Of a DNA stretch of 20,473 nucleotides, positions 4,019-15,725 are shown piece by piece. This DNA comes from a virus: positions 1 through 20,473 of the IMG/VR virus record IMGVR_UViG_3300042350_000758; one strand, written 5' to 3'. A program made the position numbers and the translations under genes. The notes beneath the pieces were generated by a model. The model had not been told where the DNA came from and made no database searches. It saw only the letters and a list, made by a program, of their open reading frames with translations. Position 1 is the first letter of the stretch. Every line of letters starts with the position of its first letter.

Positions 4019-7000
4019 CTATCGCCGCTTCTTGGCGGGCGTTGCACGGGGCAGGAACTTATCGGGGTTTACTTGGGGGGCTTGCTTGCCGGTCCCCGTT
4101 CGCGCACGACGAATCTGCTCCATCATTTTATACAGTTTTTTCGCACCTGCCTCGGTCGATCCGTTGCCAAGATGCGACACCACATCGGCGGGGATGACAA
4201 ACTCACCGTCTGCCAAAGCCGCTCTCTGCACCCCCTTACCTCGGATTACGGCAGGGATATCGTCAGACATACCATCTCCCGGTCCACGCAGGAGCTTACC
4301 ACCTGCCTGATATTCAGGCATCGACGGCATACCGCCTTGGGCAAACCCGAAGTTATAGCCGTCAACCGGGTTCACCGCCCCGCCCAAACGAGGATCACGG
4401 GCAGGCAAAGAGGCAATACCGCCCATCTGATACTTCTTAGTCTTCTTCACGATGCCTCCGGAGGCCATATCCCCATCTTGTCCATTTTTAACGCCGCACC
4501 CATACCATTTTTCAAACTCGGTTGGTCGGTACGGTAGCCCTGAAGCGTCAATACATATCGTTGCAATACAACGGTTATAAGTCAGATCAAAATAAGCCCC
4601 AAACGGGCATTGCGGCTGTTCCCCACCTTTATCAGGGTCGTATTCACCGTCGCCATCACCACGCCCACTGCACGGGTAATCACCGTTGTAAGCACGAGTA
4701 TAAGTTGAGTTGTCAGGGCACGTGCCGTAGCACATACCGTCACGTTCAACTTCGTCCTCACGACACTTTTTATCTGCCGGAGGCGGGGGTGGCGGGGGAG
4801 GTGGAGGCGGCGGAGGCGGTGGGGGTGGTGGAGGTGGCGGCGGAGGAGGTGGCGGCGGATCATCATCTTCCGCAGGAACACAAACAATAAAGCCAAGCGC
4901 AGCCAGCACCGGATCAGGCTTAGTACCCGGAGGGCAATTATCTACCGGCGGAGGTGGAGGCGGCGGGGGCGGTCTATCAGTTACACACTTACCATCCGGT
5001 CCCGGCGCTTTCCCGTTCGGACAAAGACAGGTGTCTTTGTTGGTGTCATAAATAAGCCCCGGAGGACAAAAGTCTACGCAACGGAGTTCGCCCGTGTACG
5101 GGTCCGTCATTTTCTTCTGATTTGGTTTGCATTCCTCATCAGGCAACTTCGGGCACTTTTCTCCCAACTCAGGATAGACAATGCTTCCGTCATCGCAGAT
5201 TAAGTACGGCGGCGGAGGTGGCGGGGGAGGTGGAGGCGGCGGAGGAGGCGGTGGCGGCGGAGGAGGCGGTGGCGGAGGCGGTGGCGGCGGACCCGGCTTA
5301 CACTCTTGCTCAACAGGAATTACGGACCCATCCGGGCAGGTCTTAGTCTTTGGGCTATCAGGAGCGTCTTTACATTTACCCGTTACAGGATCAGGTAGAG
5401 ATCCATCGGCGCATCGGCTATCGCTATCGCCCTTACACTTGCCAGTCACAGGATCAGGTAGAGATCCATCGGCGCAGCGATTATCACTATCGCCCTTACA
5501 CTTGCCAGTCACAGGGTCAGGTAGAGACCCATCGGCGCACTTATTCTCACCGGCACATTGACCGGTTACAGGATTGGGTAGAGACCCGTCTGGGCACTTT
5601 TCCGTTCCCCTGCACAAACCCGTTACAGGGTCAGGTATAGACCCATCCGGGCACTTTTCTGTACCTTTACATTCTTGATCCGCAGGAATGACAGAACCAT
5701 CGGAACAAGTCTTAGTCCCTGTACCCCTGCACTGACCAGTCGTCGGGTCAGGTTTAGACCCATCCGGACAAGTATTACCTGTACCGCATTCCTGATCTGA
5801 GGGAATAATTGACCCATCAGGGCAAGTCTTAGTACCCCCGGTAGTCGGACACGGATCAAGTCCCTGAACAATACGGGTTAAATCTGGCGCACTTCCGTCA
5901 GGACATTTTAATTCTGGCGGAGGAGGGGGTGGAGGAGGCGGAGGTGGCGGAGTCGGACCATCCGGATATTTAACTACCGGACCATAGTTAGTCGTACCAC
6001 GCCTCTGCGTGGTTGAGAAATAGTCCCCCATATCTACCGGCGCACGGGCCGTGGGAGGGACAAGTAGTGAACGGTACCAATCTGCGATGTCCCCAGTAGC
6101 TATGCCACCTGCCGGTACTTGAGGCAGACGGGTCATCGGATCGCGGTTTAAATTGTCGCCCTGCGCTGAACCGGTGCCTGTGGCACCAGCGCGATAATAG
6201 TCAGACAGGGCGGGAGCGAAAGGGCGGAGATTCTCGAAATACTTCCGCCTCCTTTCTTCTTCAGTCTCCGTTGCACCACCTTCCGCATAAGCAATACCGC
6301 CCGAAGCCATCTGTAGTCCGTAGCGGCGGTCATCTTGTGGGCTGGGCTGAGGTCTTGGCGGCGGCTGCGGCTGGCTTTGTCCGGTCGTTTGCCCCGGCTG
6401 CTGAGTCGTAGTCGGAGGGCGAGTGTAGTCAGGGTACTGTGTCGTAGTCCCTTGGTCTGTGTATCCCCCACCGATAAAGTACGGCTGCCCCGGCTGCGTA
6501 AAGAACAGCGGATTGACCTGCCCACGGCTGTACTGCACGTTGCGATACTGCGTCGGCTCCGGAGTCGGGATGCCCGGACGCTGCCCCGTGAGCTTCTGCT
6601 CAGCCTTCTTAGTGGCATAGAGCATGATGGCGTCCATGATCGGATCGCCCGAACGGAACAGCCCCTGCTGTCCTTGCTGAGCCTGTCCTTGCTGAGCCTG
6701 TCCTTGCTGCGTAGTGCCCGTCTGACCGCCGCCCAGCACTCGACCTAGCAGAGCATCAAGACCGCCCGTGGCGGGACTTCTACCGAGCGGAGCCTCAACC
6801 GTGGGCTTAGTGTCCATAAGACCCGGCGCAATCTCACCGAAGTCATCCGCACCACGACCAGCTTCCTTATAGCCAACAGGACCGGCGATGCCGGGGATCT
6901 TCCTGCCTTGCTGCATTCCAGCCGTGATACCGCCGAGCAACTTAGTCCCGGCGTAGGCTTTCATGCCCGCCTCAAGACCCTTTTGCAGATCACCCTTGAC

Positions 7001-7300
7001 GGCACCGTAGGCAGCGCCGGTTAGAAGGGCTGTGGTTTGAGGGTTATTGATGATAGCGTTACCGACGCTCGTCACGGTCGGTTTGATCGTTTTCCACGTA
7101 TTTCGCAAGAAATCCGTTAGCCAAAACGCTTCCGGCAACCCGGTTTGTGGGTTGAAAGTCAGGGGTAAGCCGTTAGCGGCTGCGTACTCTTTAAGTACCT
7201 GAACTTCTTCGGGGTTCATGTGGACGAGGGTGGAGTCCCCGCCACGGCCTTGAGCGGCTACAAGGGATGCTAACCCCGCCGCAGGATACTTATCGTTCAT
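4019..7300 (-). CDS. very long internal virion-like protein with polyproline rods and cysteine repeats
   Basis: The 1093-residue protein is built of blocks. Residues 1-130 are globular (LVHMNPEEVQVLKEYAAANG, then NPQTGLPEAFW and an Ala/Gly helix region). Residues 195-330 are Gln/Gly/Pro-rich, ending in MASGGIAYAEGG (331-342). Pure proline runs of 12 (451-462), 28 (671-698), 9 (777-785) and 27 (815-841) residues follow. Between 467 and 668 lie about ten CxDGSxPDPVTGxC or CxDGSxIPxxQEC units, with further related units after 699. The C-terminal 150 residues (MASGGIVKK, GMSDDIPAVIRGKG, LADGEFVIPADVVSHLGNGS) are the part I recognise from internal or tail-tape-like proteins of podovirus-like aquatic phages. 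A virion role is inferred from that tail and from position. No enzyme motif is seen. Confidence 0.8.
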   Translation of the reverse strand: MNDKYPAAGLASLVAAQGRGGDSTLVHMNPEEVQVLKEYAAANGLPLTFNPQTGLPEAFWLTDFLRNTWKTIKPTVTSVGNAIINNPQTTALLTGAAYGAVKGDLQKGLEAGMKAYAGTKLLGGITAGMQQGRKIPGIAGPVGYKEAGRGADDFGEIAPGLMDTKPTVEAPLGRSPATGGLDALLGRVLGGGQTGTTQQGQAQQGQAQQGQQGLFRSGDPIMDAIMLYATKKAEQKLTGQRPGIPTPEPTQYRNVQYSRGQVNPLFFTQPGQPYFIGGGYTDQGTTTQYPDYTRPPTTTQQPGQTTGQSQPQPPPRPQPSPQDDRRYGLQMASGGIAYAEGGATETEEERRRKYFENLRPFAPALSDYYRAGATGTGSAQGDNLNRDPMTRLPQVPAGGIATGDIADWYRSLLVPPTARAPVDMGDYFSTTQRRGTTNYGPVVKYPDGPTPPPPPPPPPPPPELKCPDGSAPDLTRIVQGLDPCPTTGGTKTCPDGSIIPSDQECGTGNTCPDGSKPDPTTGQCRGTGTKTCSDGSVIPADQECKGTEKCPDGSIPDPVTGLCRGTEKCPDGSLPNPVTGQCAGENKCADGSLPDPVTGKCKGDSDNRCADGSLPDPVTGKCKGDSDSRCADGSLPDPVTGKCKDAPDSPKTKTCPDGSVIPVEQECKPGPPPPPPPPPPPPPPPPPPPPPPPPPPPPYLICDDGSIVYPELGEKCPKLPDEECKPNQKKMTDPYTGELRCVDFCPPGLIYDTNKDTCLCPNGKAPGPDGKCVTDRPPPPPPPPPVDNCPPGTKPDPVLAALGFIVCVPAEDDDPPPPPPPPPPPPPPPPPPPPPPPPPPPADKKCREDEVERDGMCYGTCPDNSTYTRAYNGDYPCSGRGDGDGEYDPDKGGEQPQCPFGAYFDLTYNRCIATICIDASGLPYRPTEFEKWYGCGVKNGQDGDMASGGIVKKTKKYQMGGIASLPARDPRLGGAVNPVDGYNFGFAQGGMPSMPEYQAGGKLLRGPGDGMSDDIPAVIRGKGVQRAALADGEFVIPADVVSHLGNGSTEAGAKKLYKMMEQIRRARTGTGKQAPQVNPDKFLPRATPAKKRR
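4778..4858 (-). repeat. 27-codon uninterrupted proline tract
   Basis: A second long run of 27 proline codons, flanked by an acidic EDDD stretch on the N-terminal side and ADKKCRE on the C-terminal side, again with mixed codons. Confidence 0.9.
5207..5290 (-). repeat. 28-codon uninterrupted proline tract
   Basis: Twenty-eight consecutive proline codons (minus strand) in the 1093-aa gene. All four proline codons are used in mixed order, so this is not a simple single-triplet expansion and the peptide itself seems to be maintained. Confidence 0.9.
5295..5902 (-). repeat. array of cysteine-bounded DGS repeats, partly 63-base tandem
   Basis: About ten units of CxDGSxPDPVTGxC or the variant CxDGSxIPxxQEC lie between the first two long proline tracts. 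The most similar copies (CADGSLPDPVTGKC) repeat with a 63-base, 21-residue period; the plus-strand word cgcccttaca starts at 5428 and again at 5491. Older units have diverged, implying growth by tandem duplication. Confidence 0.85.
6669..6709 (-). repeat. 15-base tandem repeat coding for Gln/Gly repeats
   Basis: The plus-strand word tgtccttgctgagcc is repeated at 6669 and 6684, with a partial third copy from 6699. It codes for QGQAQQGQAQQGQQG in the 1093-aa protein. The unit is a multiple of three, so changes in copy number would keep the frame. Confidence 0.8.
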
Positions 7301-7334: not shown

Positions 7335-7949
7335 TCATGTAGCCGCCTGATAAATAGCCGAGCCGTAGTTCGACACCCAAACCACGCTTAAGATGATGGA
7401 CGGGATGGCTGGCCTGTTGTTAGTAGCTGCCACGTACGGAATGATGACAGCCGTATCAGCCGCTTCCCAAGCCAACTCAAAGTAGTCGTTGGCCTCCATC
7501 ACAAGCACAAAGTTCCAAGCCGCCACGATCTCGCTGTTAGGACCGTCAATAACGATCTTGGTGTTTGAGTCCGGTACGTTGACTCCGTTAATCCGGGGCC
7601 AAATATAGACCGCACTAGCCGAACCGCCTGACTTGTCTAGCTGAGCGGAGAACTGAAAGTTGTATACACCAGTATTAGCGACGTAAATTTTGGAAGTCGG
7701 GGTACCACGAGTAACTTCGTAGTCCGAAACGACTGAGTTATACGTAAAAAGATTGATAGCGTTGGATACCGGGTTCGTCTGCGTCGTGGTATCGAAATAC
7801 GAAGCGTGTGGAGTAGGCGCGTTGATCCGGTTTGAGACTTGGTTAAAGTACAGACGCAGGACGTTATTGAACTGCTCCATACCACGCTGATCGTATTGCC
7901 GAAGCGCAACTGGCAAATTTGGCGGAACTACACCACGTGGAGTTGTCAT
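7335..7949 (-). CDS. jelly-roll-like virion protein
   Basis: The 204-residue protein has a short helical N-terminus (RQYDQRGMEQFNNVLRLYFN), a pattern common in aquatic phage structural proteins, followed by a compact beta domain. Segments such as GVYNFQFSAQLDKSGGSAS, AVYIWPRINGVNVPDS, AAWNFVLVMEANDYFELAWE and SIILSVVWVSN alternate as expected for a TNF/C1q-like jelly roll (the GxYxFxxS, AWNFV and DYFELxW landmarks). Such domains trimerise and often cap fibres or decorate capsids, so a fibre-tip or decoration role is possible. It is coupled by TAATG to the nozzle-like gene and followed by a 34-base gap holding a small inverted repeat. The fold is inferred from pattern only. Confidence 0.7.
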   Translation of the reverse strand: MTTPRGVVPPNLPVALRQYDQRGMEQFNNVLRLYFNQVSNRINAPTPHASYFDTTTQTNPVSNAINLFTYNSVVSDYEVTRGTPTSKIYVANTGVYNFQFSAQLDKSGGSASAVYIWPRINGVNVPDSNTKIVIDGPNSEIVAAWNFVLVMEANDYFELAWEAADTAVIIPYVAATNNRPAIPSIILSVVWVSNYGSAIYQAAT

Positions 7950-10255
7950 TACCGACGACCATCCGGCCTGATATCAAGACGCAGCGCACCTACCTGCCAC
8001 GACACGCCAAGCCCAGAAGACCCGACACGTACAGCCATCTGCCTACCGCGAACCCGAGTAAACAACTGCTCGGTATAGATCTCGTACGGCAGCACTGCCG
8101 TCGCATTAACTTGTTCTATATCAGGAGTGCCGTACGCGGAGCCGGGATAGTTACGCGGATAGATCGAGATAGTAACTGATGGCGAAGAGGTCGTAGACCC
8201 CAAGAACTTGATATCCGGGATGATGCGGGAGACGAAGCCGAAGTTGTGTCCGTCACCGATGTCAAAGTCAGACGACTCAATAAAGCAAGTAATTGGCTGC
8301 GCCACACCCGTCGAGACATCATCCCAATTCACTTCGTGATACAGGACTTGGTTTGGTGCCGTCATCGAAACGGTAGTACCCGTTGTGTGAGAAGTAGCAG
8401 TCGAAGGCACCCCAGCAGGGCTATTCGCACCTCGCACACATCCAGTCAAAGTGTCGCCACTAACCCCCGTATAAGTAATGTACTCACTATCAATCTGAAC
8501 CGTACCTGATCGTGGGTAAGCAGAAGCTTCAAGCAGAGCGATAGAAGTGACAGATGAATTGATGTTCGTCGCAAGGTAAGAAGTCTGGATGCTGAACGAC
8601 AACATCGGATAGTCGCGGATACTCTGCGGCGAGAACGCAGACCGGTTCAAGCTGCCATACGACCAGACATTATCAAGGTAGTTGTAGATCACTACCGTGT
8701 CATTCACTGTGCTACCTGTGCTTGGGTAGAACCACCAGACTTCACTGAACGCTTCGTTGTTGCCACACATAACCTGTGCGATCTGGTCTTTGTTCAACGT
8801 ACTGAAGATGTGTTGGCGAATCGTGCAGGGCAACGTATTTACACGACCGTCGTACACGAAGAACTTATCCAAGCCCATCCAGTACACAGCGTTGTTGACG
8901 TTGATCACCGCATTCTGAGAGGCAATAGAAACGTCTTGATCAAGCAGGGTGAACCCAAACACAAACGGAGGTCCGAGGTACTGCATCGAGTACACAGCCG
9001 TGTCTGTCCAAATGATAATTTCCTGACGAGCAGTTGTCGCCGTTACGATCTTGGAGCCATTAGCAATACGTTGCTCACCTGACTGGTTAGTAACTTCAGG
9101 CACCCACTCGTACGGGTTATCAGCATCAGACCAACGCACCAACAACGGATCAAACGGTGTACTGAAGTTAGTCGGGTCGTAAGGATTAGATCCAAAGCAA
9201 ACCGTAAAGTCGTCAACCGGAGAGTCAATAATTAACGCGGTTTCATCAGGCACATGTCGTCCGGCATAGCTAAATGTCAAAGCTGAGACTGTAGCGGAAG
9301 CTGTCGTAGCGGTTGAAATAGTGACCGAAGTACTGCCATCCCATGCCGCAGTGACATACGTGCCTGAGACGATACCGCTGCCTGAGATGACTGAGCCGGT
9401 GTTGATACCCGTAGCATCAGCTACGACAAGCGTGACAGACCCTGAAGCATAGGCTGCCGTCGTCGTTGTTTTAGGCAGTGAATTGGCCTTTTCTTCAAGC
9501 GTGATAGCCCGTGCCCACGTAGTAGTGTCATTAGTCCAGTAGTAAATCGGGCCGTTGTTCTCAGCAAAGATCAGGTCGTTGCCATAGTTAAACTGTGACC
9601 ACAAACGCAGCGGAACACCCTGTGGAGTTGAAGAACCCCAGCCACCCGATCCCCACGGAGGACCACCCCAACCGACGTTGGACGTATAGACAGCGGTACC
9701 AGCATCAATGTCGATACTGGCAATAACTAATGAGCCACCGCCCGTCGCAGATGAACTAGCAGCAGTTGGGGTTACGATGACAAGTGAGTTATCGCCCGGA
9801 ACTTCTACGATCTCAAACTGCCCGTTTAAAGTCAGGCTGCCTACCGAAGTCGCACCTGAAAAAGTAACGTAAGTACCTACTGATGAGCCGTGCGCTGAGG
9901 CTAAAACGGTGACAAAGTTACTGCCCGATACAGTCGTAAACGGGTTTTGAGACAGGTTTAGGGAACTGCCAAGCGGAGTAATGTCGTAATACTCACCACC
10001 CAGTTCGACATAAAACTTCTGATTCGTGCCGACGCCCAGCAAATTTAAACCATCAATCGTTACCCAGTTCCACAATGACCGAGCAACGCCTTTAAACGTA
10101 GACAGAATCGTGGAAGAGTTTATCCAGCCACCGATCCTTTGGGCGTAGCCACCACGGAAACGCACCTTGTCTACGACGAAGTAACCGCCCTCACCTGCGT
10201 AATTGGTAGTTTCACGGTTGACGCCGGGGCGGAATTCGACCTTCTGAAGTGGCAT
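7949..10255 (-). CDS. large tail nozzle or hub-like structural protein
   Basis: The 768-residue protein starts MPLQKVEFRPGVNRETTNYA followed by GYFVVDKVRFRGGYAQRIGG and SLWNWVTIDGLNLLGVGTN, a recognisable beginning of a large structural protein in marine podovirus-like phages. The N-terminal and central parts carry repeated WxxD/DN blades (RWSDADNPYEWVPE, IIIWTDTAVYSMQYLG, YWMGLDKFFVYDGR, VWWFYPSTGS), suggesting beta-propeller folds like those of the nozzle proteins of short-tailed phages. A small Ser/Thr/Val-rich insert (about 275-325) looks Ig-like. The C-terminal region ends VSWQVGALRLDIRPDGRR. A nozzle or tail-hub role is inferred from fold-like repeats and position; I would not name a specific homologue. 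A GGGGG sequence 7 bases before the ATG acts as ribosome-binding site. Confidence 0.72.
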   Translation of the reverse strand: MPLQKVEFRPGVNRETTNYAGEGGYFVVDKVRFRGGYAQRIGGWINSSTILSTFKGVARSLWNWVTIDGLNLLGVGTNQKFYVELGGEYYDITPLGSSLNLSQNPFTTVSGSNFVTVLASAHGSSVGTYVTFSGATSVGSLTLNGQFEIVEVPGDNSLVIVTPTAASSSATGGGSLVIASIDIDAGTAVYTSNVGWGGPPWGSGGWGSSTPQGVPLRLWSQFNYGNDLIFAENNGPIYYWTNDTTTWARAITLEEKANSLPKTTTTAAYASGSVTLVVADATGINTGSVISGSGIVSGTYVTAAWDGSTSVTISTATTASATVSALTFSYAGRHVPDETALIIDSPVDDFTVCFGSNPYDPTNFSTPFDPLLVRWSDADNPYEWVPEVTNQSGEQRIANGSKIVTATTARQEIIIWTDTAVYSMQYLGPPFVFGFTLLDQDVSIASQNAVINVNNAVYWMGLDKFFVYDGRVNTLPCTIRQHIFSTLNKDQIAQVMCGNNEAFSEVWWFYPSTGSTVNDTVVIYNYLDNVWSYGSLNRSAFSPQSIRDYPMLSFSIQTSYLATNINSSVTSIALLEASAYPRSGTVQIDSEYITYTGVSGDTLTGCVRGANSPAGVPSTATSHTTGTTVSMTAPNQVLYHEVNWDDVSTGVAQPITCFIESSDFDIGDGHNFGFVSRIIPDIKFLGSTTSSPSVTISIYPRNYPGSAYGTPDIEQVNATAVLPYEIYTEQLFTRVRGRQMAVRVGSSGLGVSWQVGALRLDIRPDGRR

Positions 10256-10743
10256 TACATAACCCCCGACAAGTACAGCGCACGTTCGTCCATACGCCGT
10301 TTAATCAGTCCCGGCAGTACTTTACCACCTGCCTTAGTCCATTTCATAAACTCGTCAGCCGCTTCTTCCAGTTCACCCCGATTGGTCTTCATCCGAAGGG
10401 AAGAACGCTGGAGATTGCCGAGGCCCACGTTGAAGGCAAAACTGACGAGAGAATCGAAGATTCCCTGATTGCCAACAGCAGCAGGGCAAAGTCGAACCAC
10501 ACCACGCTCAAACCGACGAAGGTCTTCAGCAAGTATCCGGTCCACCTCGTCCATCGTGAGAGTGCGATCCCACCCTGCGGGTATCGGTAGATTCTTGCGC
10601 TCCTCATACTTCACCGTAGCGTGAGTAGGGTCAATCACATGGCCGACACCGACAGTCCACAAAAGGGCAGGGCAGCGGTAAGGCTTGGTCCGTACCCCCT
10701 CGTGGTGCTTAATCATGTCGATGGCGGCCTTGGAGACTTTCAC
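10255..10743 (-). CDS. endolysin, GH24 lysozyme (muramidase)
   Basis: This 162-residue enzyme hydrolyses the beta-1,4 bond between MurNAc and GlcNAc in peptidoglycan. The GH24 catalytic pattern E-8x-(D/C)-5x-T is complete: E15 in KHHEG, C24 in PYRCPA and T30 in WTVGVGH. FNVGLGNLQRSSLRM and KAGGKVLPGLIKRRMDERAL are the conserved distal segments of phage lysozymes. There is no signal or SAR anchor at the N-terminus, so export should depend on the holin encoded just upstream. The start is GTG, overlapping the holin stop (GTGA). No in-frame ATG would keep the N-terminal helix before E15. Its stop shares a base with the next start (TAATG). Length is normal for the family. Confidence 0.93.
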   Translation of the reverse strand: MKVSKAAIDMIKHHEGVRTKPYRCPALLWTVGVGHVIDPTHATVKYEERKNLPIPAGWDRTLTMDEVDRILAEDLRRFERGVVRLCPAAVGNQGIFDSLVSFAFNVGLGNLQRSSLRMKTNRGELEEAADEFMKWTKAGGKVLPGLIKRRMDERALYLSGVM

Positions 10744-11225
10744 TTCTTACCGAACGCCTGCGTGCCAAACCAGAAAGCGATGATCGAAGACAGAATCAAC
10801 ATCTCGTCATCCGAGAACACTTCAGCCATCGCAGCGGCAAACGGCACACCCGTGTTGTAGGCGTACCAAACACCAGCAATGTTGATGGCAACAAGTTCCA
10901 GCACGAAGATATAGGTCACAACCGGACGGACGCTGGCGCGGAGATTGATCATCCACTGCGAGGCACCCTTGCCGATTTCCATGTCGTGCTGGTACAGGGC
11001 TTGGCGCTCTTCGCCTGCCGTCTGAGTTTGGATCTGCTCTAGTTTAATTTCCTCAACCCGTGCCTGAGCAATAAAGCCACGCTCAGCCAAAGCCAACTCA
11101 CGCTCCTTCTGGGCAGCAACCAAGGCCAACTCGTGCTTCTTGTCCTGACGGTCTTGGAAGATTTGCAGGATCTTGGGTAATCCACCCGCGAGGAAGGACA
11201 GGAACGTGCTAACCATCGTCATCAT
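10740..11225 (-). CDS. holin, three-membrane-segment gene-transfer-agent type
   Basis: The 161-residue membrane protein should form lesions in the inner membrane at the end of infection and release the endolysin. The start at 11225 is set by an AAGGAG sequence 8 bases upstream. Hydrophobic segment 1 spans about residues 5-23 (STFLSFLAGGLPKILQIF). A long charged, probably coiled-coil stretch covers about 24-85 (KKHELALVAAQKERELALAE). Segment 2 (about 101-122) follows the motif RASVRPVVTYIF, and segment 3 is about 142-158 (MLILSSIIAFWFGTQAF). The WxxxLRASVRPxxTY core and closing WFGxQAFGKK are typical of the GTA_holin_3TM family. It overlaps the endolysin by 4 bases (GTGA). Alternative ATGs at 11222 and 11216 could give dual-start products, which is not demonstrated. 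Confidence 0.88.
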   Translation of the reverse strand: MMTMVSTFLSFLAGGLPKILQIFQDRQDKKHELALVAAQKERELALAERGFIAQARVEEIKLEQIQTQTAGEERQALYQHDMEIGKGASQWMINLRASVRPVVTYIFVLELVAINIAGVWYAYNTGVPFAAAMAEVFSDDEMLILSSIIAFWFGTQAFGKK

Positions 11226-11227
11226 GA

Positions 11228-11785
11228 TCAATACTCCTTGCCAAGAACATTTTTGGCAAACTGATAGTCTGCCGCGTACTTTTCGCGAACGAAAGCTTCT
11301 ATCTCAGGCGTCACCTCTCGTCTATTCACGGCAACAGTCATATTTACTTTTAACGGAGCCGAATCAGGTTTACCCAATAATCCACCAAATTTTTGCATTT
11401 CCGCTTTGTAATTTGCGTAATCAAGCGTCGTTATGCTTGGATAATCAAGCCAGTCAATCTGTGGTCTGAAGAGCGTATGTGGAAAATAATTAGGGTCAAA
11501 CAACTTGTCGAAGTCTTTATCTTCTACGTTCTCAAGTATGTTCCTAATCCCACTCATAAAACGATCAAGCGGATTACGGAAAAACCCGTACGTCTTATAT
11601 GTAGTTAAGTTTGGATACTTAGCAAAGGCTACATCCGGTGTCAGGTGGACACGCGCAATGATATGGTCATTATCGTTAGTAGGTACGTGCTTCATGCCGA
11701 GATCGACAAGAAATGCCCTAGCAGCGGTACTTCCGGTTTTAGGATTAAGCACCATCGCAATCTGTTTTTCTTTGTGAAACAGCAT
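11228..11785 (-). CDS. sulfotransferase family 2-like enzyme
   Basis: This 185-residue protein probably transfers sulfate from PAPS to a sugar or other acceptor. The 5'-phosphosulfate loop is NPKTGST at residues 14-20, right after a hydrophobic strand (IAMVL). The 3'-phosphate-binding motif is RNPLDRFMS at 70-78, with R70 and S78 at the expected PAPS-contacting positions, preceded by a second strand (YKTYGFF). These are the two signature motifs of the Sulfotransfer_2 group. The protein is short for the family (often 250 or more residues) and has no signal peptide or membrane anchor, so it should act in the cytoplasm. It is coupled by TAATG to the fibre-associated gene and ends 2 bases before the holin start. 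The substrate could be a virion protein glycan or host surface polysaccharide. It is AT-richer than its neighbours. Confidence 0.82.
   Translation of the reverse strand: MLFHKEKQIAMVLNPKTGSTAARAFLVDLGMKHVPTNDNDHIIARVHLTPDVAFAKYPNLTTYKTYGFFRNPLDRFMSGIRNILENVEDKDFDKLFDPNYFPHTLFRPQIDWLDYPSITTLDYANYKAEMQKFGGLLGKPDSAPLKVNMTVAVNRREVTPEIEAFVREKYAADYQFAKNVLGKEY
11234..11239 (-). promoter_or_regulatory. ribosome-binding site that fixes the holin start
   Basis: AAGGAG on the minus strand, embedded in the last codons of the sulfotransferase gene. It stands 8 bases before the ATG at 11225, but only 2 bases before an in-frame TTG at 11231, so the ATG is the better holin start. Confidence 0.7.
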
Positions 11786-12168
11786 TACGGTAATTCTTCT
11801 TCGGTTAGTGATTTCTTAACTGCATAGCTAAGATTTGAAAAAAGAACCGGCAAATTGGTTGCCTCGTCTTTAACTTCCCATAAACAGGTATTAGGGTTAA
11901 TTACCAAAGAAGCTGGATAGGGCGGTTTAGGAGGTACAAACGCGTCGTACTCAGAAGAATATGTGCCGCCAATTGCAGCGTAGTTTTTTCTAAAATTGGC
12001 GTTATAGCTTGTCTGCACCCAACGAGTATCAGGGCCAAACAAAGACTGACAGAAAGCTATACCCTTCGCTTCAGACTCTTTACCGTCTAAATCAATGAGT
12101 TCGTTGTTAGATACAGTAATGACCTGAAGAACAACGTTATTTGTGTCTATTTGTGCAAAGTGAGCCAT
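11785..12168 (-). CDS. small fibre-associated phage protein, assembly-like
   Basis: The protein has 127 residues from the ATG at 12168, starting MAHFAQIDTNNVVLQVITVS. A longer reading from a TTG at 12183 would run back into the preceding gene and adds only five residues, so I reject it. The pattern AxIDxNNVVxxVI, then GIAFCQSLFGPDTRWVQTSY, then FRKNYAAIGGTYSSEYDAFV plus PPKPYP-like and NPNTCLWEV segments is a widespread small protein of aquatic phages that sits after fibre genes. Its layout (strand pair, central turn, GxxYxxxxxxFxPP clasp) parallels the fibre-assembly-like gene at 13352-13759. Its stop shares a base with the sulfotransferase start (TAATG). Base composition is lower in G+C than in the surrounding genes. 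Confidence 0.78.
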   Translation of the reverse strand: MAHFAQIDTNNVVLQVITVSNNELIDLDGKESEAKGIAFCQSLFGPDTRWVQTSYNANFRKNYAAIGGTYSSEYDAFVPPKPPYPASLVINPNTCLWEVKDEATNLPVLFSNLSYAVKKSLTEEELP

Positions 12169-12170
12169 AG

Positions 12171-13301
12171 TTATGAGTTCCAAACTATCGAGCCTGAACC
12201 AGTAAACGTATAAATCTTGTACCCGCCAGTATTAACAAACGTTGGCGAACCTGTCGTAGTAGCAGTTGTGTAGGTATTAGAGTGTCGAACGATTACAACA
12301 CCGGAACCGCCAGAGTTACCTGAGAAAGCGACCCATTCGTTATATCCACCCAAACAACCATTACCACCGCCGCCACCGCCGCCAGTATTAGCGCCACCAG
12401 CCTGTGCGTTGTTAAGACAGTAAAAACCTGCATGTCCGCCGCCACACCGCCCATCTCTTGGAGCAGTGTCACTATTACCGCCACCGCCGCCACCGGCTCT
12501 ACATACAGAAGATCCGGTAATAGTTGAAATGGTGCCGGAAGCACCCAAACCCTGCTGAAAAATACCAGAAATAACAATTGACTGTGCCGCAGCATCGGCA
12601 CCGCCACCGCCACTAGTATATGAATACCGAGCAGGATTATTTACTTTACCGTTAATACCTCCGTAGCCTTGTCCGGAAGTTCCTGCACCGCCAGCACCTT
12701 GAGCATTGGTAACGTTACTTTCCCAGTTACCGTCAAGAACGTTATTAAAATACGCCGCGCCACCGCCACCGCCTGATCCACCGGAACCGCCAGCATTAGC
12801 ATAGTCGCCGTAATACCAATAACCACTACCGCCGTATCCACCGCCTATAGCAGTCACGCCAAATGCAGATGAGTTACCACCCTGTGCACCGTTAGAACCT
12901 GCGCTATTACCGTAAGCGCCACCACCACCGCCAGCACCGACTGTGATGGTATAAGTAGTTGATTGACTAATTGATGCAGAACCGCTGAGGTAGCCACCGC
13001 CACCGCCGCCAGCACCGCCACCGCCATAAACTTGCCAAACAGCGTATGGGGCGTAGGGCTGATAACCGACCAAAGTCCATGCACCTGCGCCACCGCCGCC
13101 ACCGGCGATAACCAAGTATTCAACTTGCGGAGGACCGTTATAGGCAGACTTGCCCCACAAGTCACTCATTGAAATCGCACCGGAAGCCTTACCAGCAAGT
13201 GTGCGTACGTTCGCTTGGTTCAACGAAATCTGAGTAGTAGCGGCTAAGCTAAGCTCAACGTTTACTTGTGAAAGCGATATAGAACCTGTAGGAAGTGGCA
13301 T
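12171..13301 (-). CDS. glycine-rich adhesin-like tail protein 2
   Basis: This 376-residue protein has an N-terminal module, MPLPTGSISLSQVNVELSL followed by ISLNQANVRTLAGKASGAI and SMSDLWGKS, that I recognise from phage tail proteins and that probably docks it to the tail. Residues 57-330 are glycine-rich with aromatic interruptions (WYYGDYANAGGSGGSGGGGG). A cluster of four cysteines lies in the distal part (VCRAGG, GRCGGG, FYCLNN, NGCLGG). The C-terminus GSGVVIVRHSNTYTTATTTG plus YKIYTFTGSGSIVWNS is a beta cap typical of these proteins. It probably binds a cell-surface receptor, by analogy with other glycine-rich phage adhesins. A 50-base gap, the longest in the window, precedes it. The next gene follows 2 bases after its stop. 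Confidence 0.82.
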   Translation of the reverse strand: MPLPTGSISLSQVNVELSLAATTQISLNQANVRTLAGKASGAISMSDLWGKSAYNGPPQVEYLVIAGGGGGAGAWTLVGYQPYAPYAVWQVYGGGGAGGGGGGYLSGSASISQSTTYTITVGAGGGGGAYGNSAGSNGAQGGNSSAFGVTAIGGGYGGSGYWYYGDYANAGGSGGSGGGGGAAYFNNVLDGNWESNVTNAQGAGGAGTSGQGYGGINGKVNNPARYSYTSGGGGADAAAQSIVISGIFQQGLGASGTISTITGSSVCRAGGGGGGNSDTAPRDGRCGGGHAGFYCLNNAQAGGANTGGGGGGGNGCLGGYNEWVAFSGNSGGSGVVIVRHSNTYTTATTTGSPTFVNTGGYKIYTFTGSGSIVWNS

Positions 13302-13351: not shown

Positions 13352-13759
13352 TCAGATCTTCTCGTTAGGCTGTACCGGAGCAGTCAGGATCTCAGTCTCG
13401 CGCTGCGAAGTCAAAAGTCCCTTTGACACCATCATGTCCAAACCAGACTTGGTACGAGAATCGTTGAGATTGACTTGACTGACGATGTTGAACGTCTCAA
13501 CCCACGCCGCTACGGAAACGTCGGTTTTAGCAGCAGTCAAAATGCCAACATACTCTTCATCGGTCATGCGATAGCGAAACGCCAACCGAGTGATGATTGG
13601 TTCTGCCGCAAGTGGAGGACTAAATGTACCGCCGCTATAAAGCCAGCCGGGGCCGACAGAATCAGGACATTCAACCCATGTTCCAAATACTTGAGGTTGG
13701 GCGGCTTGTATAACCACCGTATCAACCACGCCATTTTTAATTAAAGCCCAGCGTTTCAT
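13352..13759 (-). CDS. tail fibre assembly-like protein
   Basis: This is a 135-residue protein. The N-terminal half, MKRWALIKNGVVDTVVI then GTWVECPDSVGPGWLYSGG followed by TFSPP, is the standard layout of small tail-fibre-assembly-like proteins: a xxxALIxNGVVxxVV strand pair, a WVExPD turn and a GxxYxxGxFxPP clasp. The C-terminal half is helical (RMTDEEYVGILTAAKTDVSV) and ends EILTAPVQPNEKI. It overlaps the upstream glycine-rich gene by 4 bases (ATGA), and a GAGGAG ribosome-binding sequence lies 11 bases before the ATG. The pairing suggests it acts with that glycine-rich protein, either as chaperone or as part of the tip. The family call is good; the partner is inferred from position only. 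Confidence 0.78.
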   Translation of the reverse strand: MKRWALIKNGVVDTVVIQAAQPQVFGTWVECPDSVGPGWLYSGGTFSPPLAAEPIITRLAFRYRMTDEEYVGILTAAKTDVSVAAWVETFNIVSQVNLNDSRTKSGLDMMVSKGLLTSQRETEILTAPVQPNEKI

Positions 13760-14553
13760 GCTTGTATAAACTCCTCAATAACGATGTAACCGCCAGACCC
13801 GGCACCGCCAGAACCAGAAACGCATCCGACTCCTTGTGCACCACCTGAACCGCCGCCACCGGCTCCGTAGCCCGTTCCAGCACTACCGTTTGCGCCTGTT
13901 GTGGAATTAACTGCGGCACCGCCATTTCCACCAGTTCCATATATGCTGTCGCCGCCAGCGCCGCCGCCACCTGCATCACTAGCCGCAGCGCCGCCGGTTG
14001 CTAGTCCTGCTATTAATTCTCCGGGGGATTCTCCGGCGCTTCCCGCAATGGCAGGACTTCCGGTTCCACCAGCACCACCATCTCCTCCGCTATAACCGGG
14101 AGAAGCGCCAGCATTGGTGTAGTTTAAAGCGCCACCATTTCCACCTGTTGAAGGAGAACCGCCAGATGGATTTCCTTGACCGCCGCCACCGCCACCGGGA
14201 GATACAAACCTTCCAAATTTAGTATTTCCGCCCGCAGTACCGTTATTGCCTAACGGATTTCCAGAAGAGCCAGCAACTCCAGCGCCACCAGATCCACCAG
14301 CGCCAACGGCATATGAGTAAGAACCGTCAATAAGTCTTATCCAGAACTGAACGGTTGCACCTGCGCCGCCACCGCCACCGCCAGTAGCCGCTTGACCGTC
14401 TGTTGCACCGCCAGATCCGCCACCGCCACCACCACCAACAAGCGTGACACGCGCCCAAGATTGCGATGTGCTAATGGGTGTAAACGTGCCACTACCGCTG
14501 GTGTAAGTCGTGACCTTGGCGGGGCCGCCAGTAAATTGACTAAAGTAACTCAT
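13756..14553 (-). CDS. glycine-rich adhesin-like tail protein 1
   Basis: The 265-residue protein starts MSYFSQFTGGPAKVTTYTSG. I chose the ATG at 14553 over the upstream ATG at 14565 because it makes a 4-base ATGA coupling with the preceding gene and puts an AAGGA ribosome-binding sequence 10 bases away; the upstream start would have none. After a short beta domain (WARVTLVGGGGG), the rest is dominated by glycine runs separated by short Ser/Ala/Asn segments, ending GGYIVIEEFIQA. This layout matches the glycine-rich domain of phage tail adhesins such as the polyglycine-II bundles of T-even gp38 adhesins. Receptor binding at the fibre tip is the likely role, by analogy. The following small gene looks like its assembly partner. 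Confidence 0.82.
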   Translation of the reverse strand: MSYFSQFTGGPAKVTTYTSGSGTFTPISTSQSWARVTLVGGGGGGGSGGATDGQAATGGGGGGAGATVQFWIRLIDGSYSYAVGAGGSGGAGVAGSSGNPLGNNGTAGGNTKFGRFVSPGGGGGGQGNPSGGSPSTGGNGGALNYTNAGASPGYSGGDGGAGGTGSPAIAGSAGESPGELIAGLATGGAAASDAGGGGAGGDSIYGTGGNGGAAVNSTTGANGSAGTGYGAGGGGSGGAQGVGCVSGSGGAGSGGYIVIEEFIQA

Positions 14554-15725
14554 GCCAAAATCCATCCTTCGGTGTTATCGGTAAAGCGAAGCTGTGCCGA
14601 TGCGTAGGGAGCGTTCAACGTCATATCTTCTGCAATACCTTGAATGTTTTTGCCGTTACGAGCGATGACGTTCGTTGTCAGGCTGTTAGCCACCGTGACG
14701 TAGATTGTGTCGCCCGAACTTGGTGAACCCGGCAGCGTAACCGTAGCGGCAGAACCTGCGGTCAAAACGTAGTGGAACCCAGCCGAAGCAGAGATGGCCG
14801 TGGAAGAAGTCACGGTCACGACCGGAAGTCCCGCCGAAGCAAGCGTAATGCTGCCAGCGTTGTTCGTGATGGTCATGCCGGTACCGGCAGTCAGAGTCGA
14901 TAGAGCAAACCCAGATCCGTTACCAATTAGCAACTGACCATTGGTCGGAGTCGAATCTACACCGGTTCCACCCTCTGCAACTTTGAGTGCATTCGTAAGG
15001 GTCAGGCTAGTCGCAGAGATGTTCGTACCTGTGAGGGTTGTGATGTTGGCTGAAGTAGACCCGAGGTTTGTAACCGTAGCCGAGGTATAAGTGGCCGTCG
15101 TACCTGTGAGAGTCGTGATGTTGGCTGAAGTGGAGGTCAGCGTCGTAATCGTGGCCGAAGTTGATTGAAGTTGAGTAATGTTTGCTGAGGCATGAGTCGC
15201 CGTAGTGACGTTCATACTGCTACCGGTCAGGGTGGTAATCCCCGCCGAGGTCGAAGTCAGCGTCGTAATTGTGGCTGAGGTAGCCGTTAAATTAGTCAGT
15301 GAAAGGCTTGACGGCGTAGAAGTGATGTAGCTCGTTGCTTGGACAATATCCGTGCCATTAGAAACGAGAATAACTTTATCACCTGCCGCAACAGAGACAC
15401 CGGTCTGACCCGCCACCTTGACCGTTACTGCACCAGTAGAGTTATTGAAGATGAAGTAGAGCTTCTTGTTGGCAGGGACGATCAGGTTAGTGTTAGTACC
15501 ACCCGTGCCGGTCAACTCAATAAACATATTACGGGCGACACCGGTCGCGCCGTTCGGGATGGTCAGCGTGGTATCTGTGCCCGTAGAAACAGCCTGAGTA
15601 ACGTACCCGGAAATGGCTTGCTCAAGCAGCGTACCAAGATTGGTATTTGTAGTATTACCCCATGTACCCGCGCCTTCGCCGGTAGTCAAAAGGGTCAAGG
15701 CCAGATTTGTACTGTAAGTAGCCAT
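14550..15725 (-). CDS. tail fibre-type protein
   Basis: This 391-residue protein begins MATYSTNLALTLLTTGEGAGTWG followed by NTNLGTLLEQAI, an N-terminal module I recognise from many aquatic phage fibre proteins; it probably anchors to the tail. Residues 60-130 form a beta-rich domain, followed by repeats of TSANITTLTGT and TSATITTLTST, then GGTGVDSTPTNGQLLIGNG, a module shared with the S74 fibre, and a C-terminal beta domain ending TDNTEGWILA. No S74 domain is present. TGAGGT at a suitable distance before the ATG serves as ribosome-binding site. Its stop overlaps the next start as ATGA. Recombination with the larger fibre gene is plausible because both repeats and the flanking module are shared. 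Confidence 0.85.
   Translation of the reverse strand: MATYSTNLALTLLTTGEGAGTWGNTTNTNLGTLLEQAISGYVTQAVSTGTDTTLTIPNGATGVARNMFIELTGTGGTNTNLIVPANKKLYFIFNNSTGAVTVKVAGQTGVSVAAGDKVILVSNGTDIVQATSYITSTPSSLSLTNLTATSATITTLTSTSAGITTLTGSSMNVTTATHASANITQLQSTSATITTLTSTSANITTLTGTTATYTSATVTNLGSTSANITTLTGTNISATSLTLTNALKVAEGGTGVDSTPTNGQLLIGNGSGFALSTLTAGTGMTITNNAGSITLASAGLPVVTVTSSTAISASAGFHYVLTAGSAATVTLPGSPSSGDTIYVTVANSLTTNVIARNGKNIQGIAEDMTLNAPYASAQLRFTDNTEGWILA

Follow-up and report, generated by a model that had tools for sequence, protein, structure and literature searches.

What is a sulfotransferase gene doing between the adhesin genes and the lysis genes of a phage late operon? We address this question for the window, the whole 20,473-base viral record analysed here, which comes from a lake-type phage and carries nearly all of its long plausible genes on the minus strand. 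An earlier note on this DNA had picked out the open reading frame at 11228-11785 and left its strand unstated; the gene is real and on the minus strand, forms part of the late tail/lysis operon, where that note had put it, and encodes a protein that is cytosolic by sequence, again as described. The features on which the argument rests are given below, with the genes in their order of transcription.

19399-14550, minus strand: tail proteins, the start of the series in transcription order
13756-14565, minus strand: first glycine-rich adhesin of the window, 269 aa
13352-13759, minus strand: second adhesin-partner protein (phrog_25252), variable at its N-terminus and conserved at its C-terminus
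12171-13301, minus strand: glycine-rich adhesin of 376 aa, from profile matches (Gly_rich_2, phrog_2295)
11785-12168, minus strand: phrog_7759 protein (MAHFAQID...), the adhesin partner, with its conserved start at 12168
11783-11787, minus strand: TAATG stop/start overlap between the upstream gene and the sulfotransferase gene, a junction kept in the family
11228-11785, minus strand: sulfotransferase gene (P0001), 185 aa, assigned from predicted fold and family
11726-11746, minus strand: predicted PAPS-binding loop N14-T20 (NPKTGST) with the transition-state Lys16, conserved in homologues
11645-11647, minus strand: His47, candidate catalytic base, from its conservation in homologues and analogy with HS2ST His142
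11552-11578, minus strand: predicted 3'-phosphate-binding motif R70-S78 (RNPLDRFMS), conserved in homologues
11234-11239, minus strand: AAGGAG, putative ribosome-binding site of the holin-type gene, within the sulfotransferase end codons (LGKEY)
10740-11225, minus strand: holin-type membrane protein (phrog_6637), the conserved edge of the swapped cassette
10255-10743, minus strand: endolysin (Phage_lysozyme, E=3.4e-35)
7949-10255, minus strand: virion structural / stabilization protein

The window also encodes, at 4019-7300 on the minus strand, a 1093-aa protein with long proline runs and repeated CPDGS-type motifs.

We consider the identity of the enzyme settled, despite weak profile matches, because of its predicted fold and the 15 divergent homologues that keep its motifs. 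The Sulfotransfer_2 profile (PF03567), which the earlier note had named as a check, gave a weak but specific match that stayed under the cut-off (E=0.01; 16.4 bits against a gathering cut-off of 22 bits), and it matched five of the 15 homologues at E<=0.01, the best at 1.2e-5. The PHROG 3347 profile, which belongs to a library without curated cut-offs, matched residues 8-178 of the window protein at E=4.5e-4 and was matched by 8/15 homologues. No phage GenBank record was found by tblastn with the window protein; scans of IMG/VR yielded homologues at 30-39% identity, and a profile then added more from neighbouring loci.

Sulfotransferases depend on a basic residue (Lys or Arg) in the PAPS loop, on an RxxxDxxxS motif, which is the consensus for binding the 3'-phosphate, and on a base that is either His or Glu (PMC11625862). 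Both signatures reported earlier are present in the window protein: NPKTGST (residues 14-20) provides a 5'-phosphosulfate loop with Gly and Lys/Arg, and RNPLDRFMS (residues 70-78) fits the published RxxxDxxxS consensus. Lys/Arg16, Arg70 and Ser78 are retained in 15/15 homologues whose identity to the window protein is only 30-43%; position 16 carries Lys in 14 of them and Arg in one (L010), R70, P72 and S78 are invariant, and His47 occurs in 14, being absent from L008. Since changing His142, the putative base of HS2ST, abolishes activity (PMC6094399), His47 is by analogy a candidate for the catalytic base. Values of dN/dS in two homologue pairs (0.17 and 0.07, by simple Nei-Gojobori counts, the first pair having a nearly identical 3' part in common) point to purifying selection. 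It is very improbable that catalysis has been lost and that the protein persists as a tail-tip component with a structural or chaperone-like role: the gene does sit in the usual place of fibre assembly factors, L008 lacks His47 and L010 has Arg for Lys16, but the key residues are kept across sequences this divergent, and Arg also occupies the Lys16-equivalent position in the sulfotransferase Stf0 (PMC11625862).

An AlphaFold model of the 185-aa protein, built on 15 sequences, reached a pLDDT of 87 and a pTM of 0.85, with lower confidence in the stretch holding His47, and has the P-loop beta-alpha fold of sulfotransferases. Ranks 1-18 of a Foldseek search against the PDB were all sulfotransferases, although the best E-value was only 1.1e-3. 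In VIA-align the top match was heparan sulfate 2-O-sulfotransferase (Z 10.4, rmsd 3.7, 167 aligned residues); the best 18 rows (Z 9.3-10.4) comprised glycosaminoglycan sulfotransferases and one bacterial sulfotransferase, and cytosolic SULT enzymes ranked lower (Z 8.5 and below). The named leading matches in a viral library were mostly phage and giant-virus sulfotransferases. Both checks that the earlier note had proposed for its assignment, the P-loop fold in a predicted structure and the retention of the two motifs in homologues, came out in its favour.

To which neighbours the gene belongs was addressed with a comparison set of ~170 viral contigs; the loci are mostly metagenomic contig fragments, several of them near-duplicates, and their gene calls are mechanical ORFs. 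Among the 14 distinct loci having both a sulfotransferase and an upstream adhesin, the enzyme gene lies one or two genes behind the Gly-rich adhesin in 13, compared with a random expectation of 3.5, and none of 20,000 shuffles of gene placement reached 13. In the single exception (L013) the enzyme is four genes behind the adhesin, with a 2OG oxygenase and phrog_7759 in between. Linkage to the lysis genes was rejected, since the sulfotransferase-to-holin distance ranges across loci from 1 to 6 genes; the enzyme gene directly precedes the holin in only 5/11. The sulfotransferase therefore belongs with the adhesin cassette and not with the lysis genes, moving with the adhesin instead of with the conserved backbone. 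Of the placement that had been reported, between adhesin and lysis genes, the adhesin side is borne out and the lysis side is not. In the homologue tree, two sequences found behind a phrog_25252-type partner form a supported pair and two found directly behind an adhesin form another. Comparison of the same locus in related phages shows a recurrent family and not a lone oddity.

The gene is also tied to the cassette by translation. The start-stop coupling to an adhesin-associated gene that had been noticed earlier takes the form of a TAATG overlap with the preceding gene (phrog_7759 in the window), and the same junction is kept in 12/16 family members. At the other end, the sulfotransferase stop lies 2 bases ahead of the holin-type ATG at 11225, as had also been observed, and the end codons for LGKEY hold AAGGAG or AAGGAA in many members. 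These hexamers are placed to act as a ribosome-binding site for the next gene, holin or tail gene, and part of the C-terminal conservation of the sulfotransferase may reflect this embedded site.

The partner genes have a wider distribution of their own. Proteins of the phrog_7759 type (MAHFAxxDxNNxVxxVIVV...) pair with Gly-rich adhesins in most of the 78 diverse viral loci of a separate scan (L101-L178), on contigs of up to 250 kb; counted from its listing, phrog_7759 stands directly behind a Gly-rich protein in ~62/78. The Gly-rich adhesin and phrog_7759 form a widespread two-gene unit, in which phrog_7759 might be an adhesin chaperone or a tip protein. The phrog_25252-type partner (13352-13759), in its variable N-terminus and conserved C-terminus, resembles tail-fibre assembly chaperones such as Mu TFA and Pam3 gp25. 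A chaperone identity for the partner genes was unsupported, since comparison of the partner proteins with PDB sequences gave no meaningful match, the best being histone H1 at E 0.35 and the others worse.

A scan with the holin-type protein recovered 80 loci with holins 98-100% identical, upstream of which the genes are very different. In 72/78 loci DNA similarity to the window breaks off at most 3 bases from the start of the holin gene (at 9246-9249 in reverse-strand numbering, in which the holin ATG is at 9249), showing that the cassette is exchanged as a unit with its breakpoint at the holin start codon. Four loci (L016, L017, L020 and L027) have backbones ~92% identical over 3.7-6.5 kb downstream and other genes in the slot; the backbone therefore does not need the enzyme in that slot. 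In other phages several types of 2OG-Fe(II) oxygenase (PF13759, PF13640) take the place behind the adhesin, four loci (L004, L009, L010 and L013) carry both oxygenase and sulfotransferase, and some carry neither. The oxygenases that lie behind an adhesin in related phages fall into at least four kinds, found at L050:6826-7422, L091:5461-6030, L023:5780-6439 and L082:4920-5525.

The GC content of the sulfotransferase genes is 0.35-0.49 against 0.48-0.54 for their loci, and is the lower of the two in 16/16 members. Such a low value is what one would expect of a mobile, foreign-looking gene, and phage sulfotransferases are indeed known and usually listed as auxiliary metabolic genes, their function being described as unclear (PMC10580990). 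Even so, we regard it as unlikely that this is an auxiliary metabolic gene of the general kind, whose enzyme acts on a small molecule and has no functional link to adhesion, the tail region being a convenient insertion site, given that its order behind the adhesin partner is fixed and its TAATG coupling kept though other genes of the locus are rearranged. A bacterial origin was also considered and set aside, as a pattern scan of 84,980 species genomes, which covers close relatives only, found no relative.

We propose, with a probability of roughly 0.5, that the protein is a working PAPS-dependent sulfotransferase and an accessory of an exchangeable receptor-binding cassette made up of a glycine-rich adhesin, a small partner protein and the sulfotransferase itself. 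The enzyme would be made late, with its translation coupled behind that of the adhesin partner, and sulfate would join the receptor-binding surface during virion maturation, the PAPS being supplied by the host; the 2OG-Fe(II) oxygenases of sister cassettes may do a similar job by hydroxylation. We infer that the enzyme is active and made late, and that it uses host PAPS because 11 of 12 records lack a PAPS-reductase-family gene. A local supply of PAPS was rejected as an alternative, this family occurring in 1/12 records only. A PAPS-reductase-family gene lies at L008:54-539, ~5.5 kb upstream of the sulfotransferase.

As to the acceptor, we put the chance that it is the adhesin or its partner at about even, and favour these two because gene order and translation tie the enzyme to them, oxygenases can take its place and its synthesis is presumably late. 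Oxygenases of the 2OG-Fe(II) type commonly hydroxylate proteins. Tyrosine was examined as the acceptor residue: the Tyr content of adhesins with a sulfotransferase behind them (3.9 vs 2.8%, p=0.006, in a small set with 9 features tested) was less clearly enriched in a larger set of 116 clusters (p=0.02) and within the phrog_7759 class (p=0.08-0.11).

Linkage to the adhesin does not on its own separate virion from host targets, because an enzyme that modifies the receptor would also need to match the adhesin, and so would travel with it. It is possible, though we hold it at less than even odds, that the enzyme, late in infection, sulfates a glycan of the host surface (LPS, capsule or precursors of either) and thereby masks the receptor of the linked adhesin. 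Progeny would then escape being caught on debris or on the dying cell, and rivals bearing the same adhesin would be shut out. Carbohydrates are the substrates of the closest solved folds, the structural ranks being headed by carbohydrate sulfotransferases, and this leans towards a glycan acceptor; the PHROG 3347 profile is named galactose-3-O-sulfotransferase, which is an annotation only, and in cyanophage S-T4 a related sulfotransferase gene stands beside a NolO-like carbamoyltransferase and tail fibres. Against masking of the host, the cassette contains no recognised flippase, glycosyltransferase or membrane anchor, glycan masking accounts less readily for the 2OG-Fe(II) oxygenases found in the same slot, and late expression leaves little time for surface remodelling.

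Returning to the virion as target, we tentatively suggest that swappable adhesin cassettes, each bringing a tailoring enzyme of its own (a sulfotransferase or a 2OG oxygenase), might chemically modify the receptor-binding tip during assembly, in which case recognition would depend on post-translational chemistry as well as on sequence. If this were true, sulfation of proteins on a phage virion would be part of the picture, and we found no report of such sulfation in the open-licence literature; host-range prediction that relies on the adhesin sequence alone would then overlook a layer. More broadly, the fixed partners of the gene turn the open label of auxiliary metabolic gene into a specific claim, that sulfate is part of host recognition, with hydroxylation in its place in the sister cassettes; our results suggest that sulfate may serve phages to tune, or else to conceal, how virus and host make contact.

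The description of this arrangement as an unusual phage strategy needs qualifying, as related sulfotransferases occur in cultivated cyanophages, some of them adjoining baseplate or tail-fibre genes. What is new is the systematic, exchangeable adhesin-partner-sulfotransferase unit; phage sulfotransferases, including some beside virion genes, were already known, and in the open-licence literature we found no paper linking one to an adhesin cassette. The PHROG 3347 enzymes of the cyanophages P-SSM7, S-T4 and Sf-CH5/CH8 are likewise small, cytosolic and PAPS-type, from tailed phages. In P-SSM7 the gene comes right after the baseplate gene gp5 and shares 1 base with its end, in S-T4 (L183:8962-11193) it adjoins the carbamoyltransferase and tail-fibre genes on opposite strands, and in Sf-CH5 its neighbour is a tail gene on the other strand. 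However, these enzymes match the window protein only weakly in sequence, and the adhesin-partner cassette was not seen around their genes. With members of Sulfotransfer_2 (PF03567), including heparan sulfate 2-O-sulfotransferase, the window protein has in common the fold, the PAPS loop, RxxxDxxxS and a candidate His base, whereas it scores below their curated cut-off, is shorter (185 aa) and is without a membrane anchor.

The hypervariable host-recognition islands of marine phages are likewise swappable tail-fibre/receptor-binding regions, and Fe(II)-dependent oxygenases are listed among their "host recognition" genes; sulfotransferases, in contrast, go unmentioned in the text of that paper (PMC3909814). 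Pam3 gp24-gp25 and S16 gp38 also combine a glycine-rich distal adhesin with a small partner gene, although no enzyme is described with these fibre-chaperone pairs in the passages on them (PMC9608196). Among cultivated phages, the lake phage DSL-LC04 carries a matching cassette that comprises an oxygenase, phrog_7759, a lectin-type protein and a peptidase, along with a gene annotated "3TM holin" at the place that matches the holin-type gene of the window.
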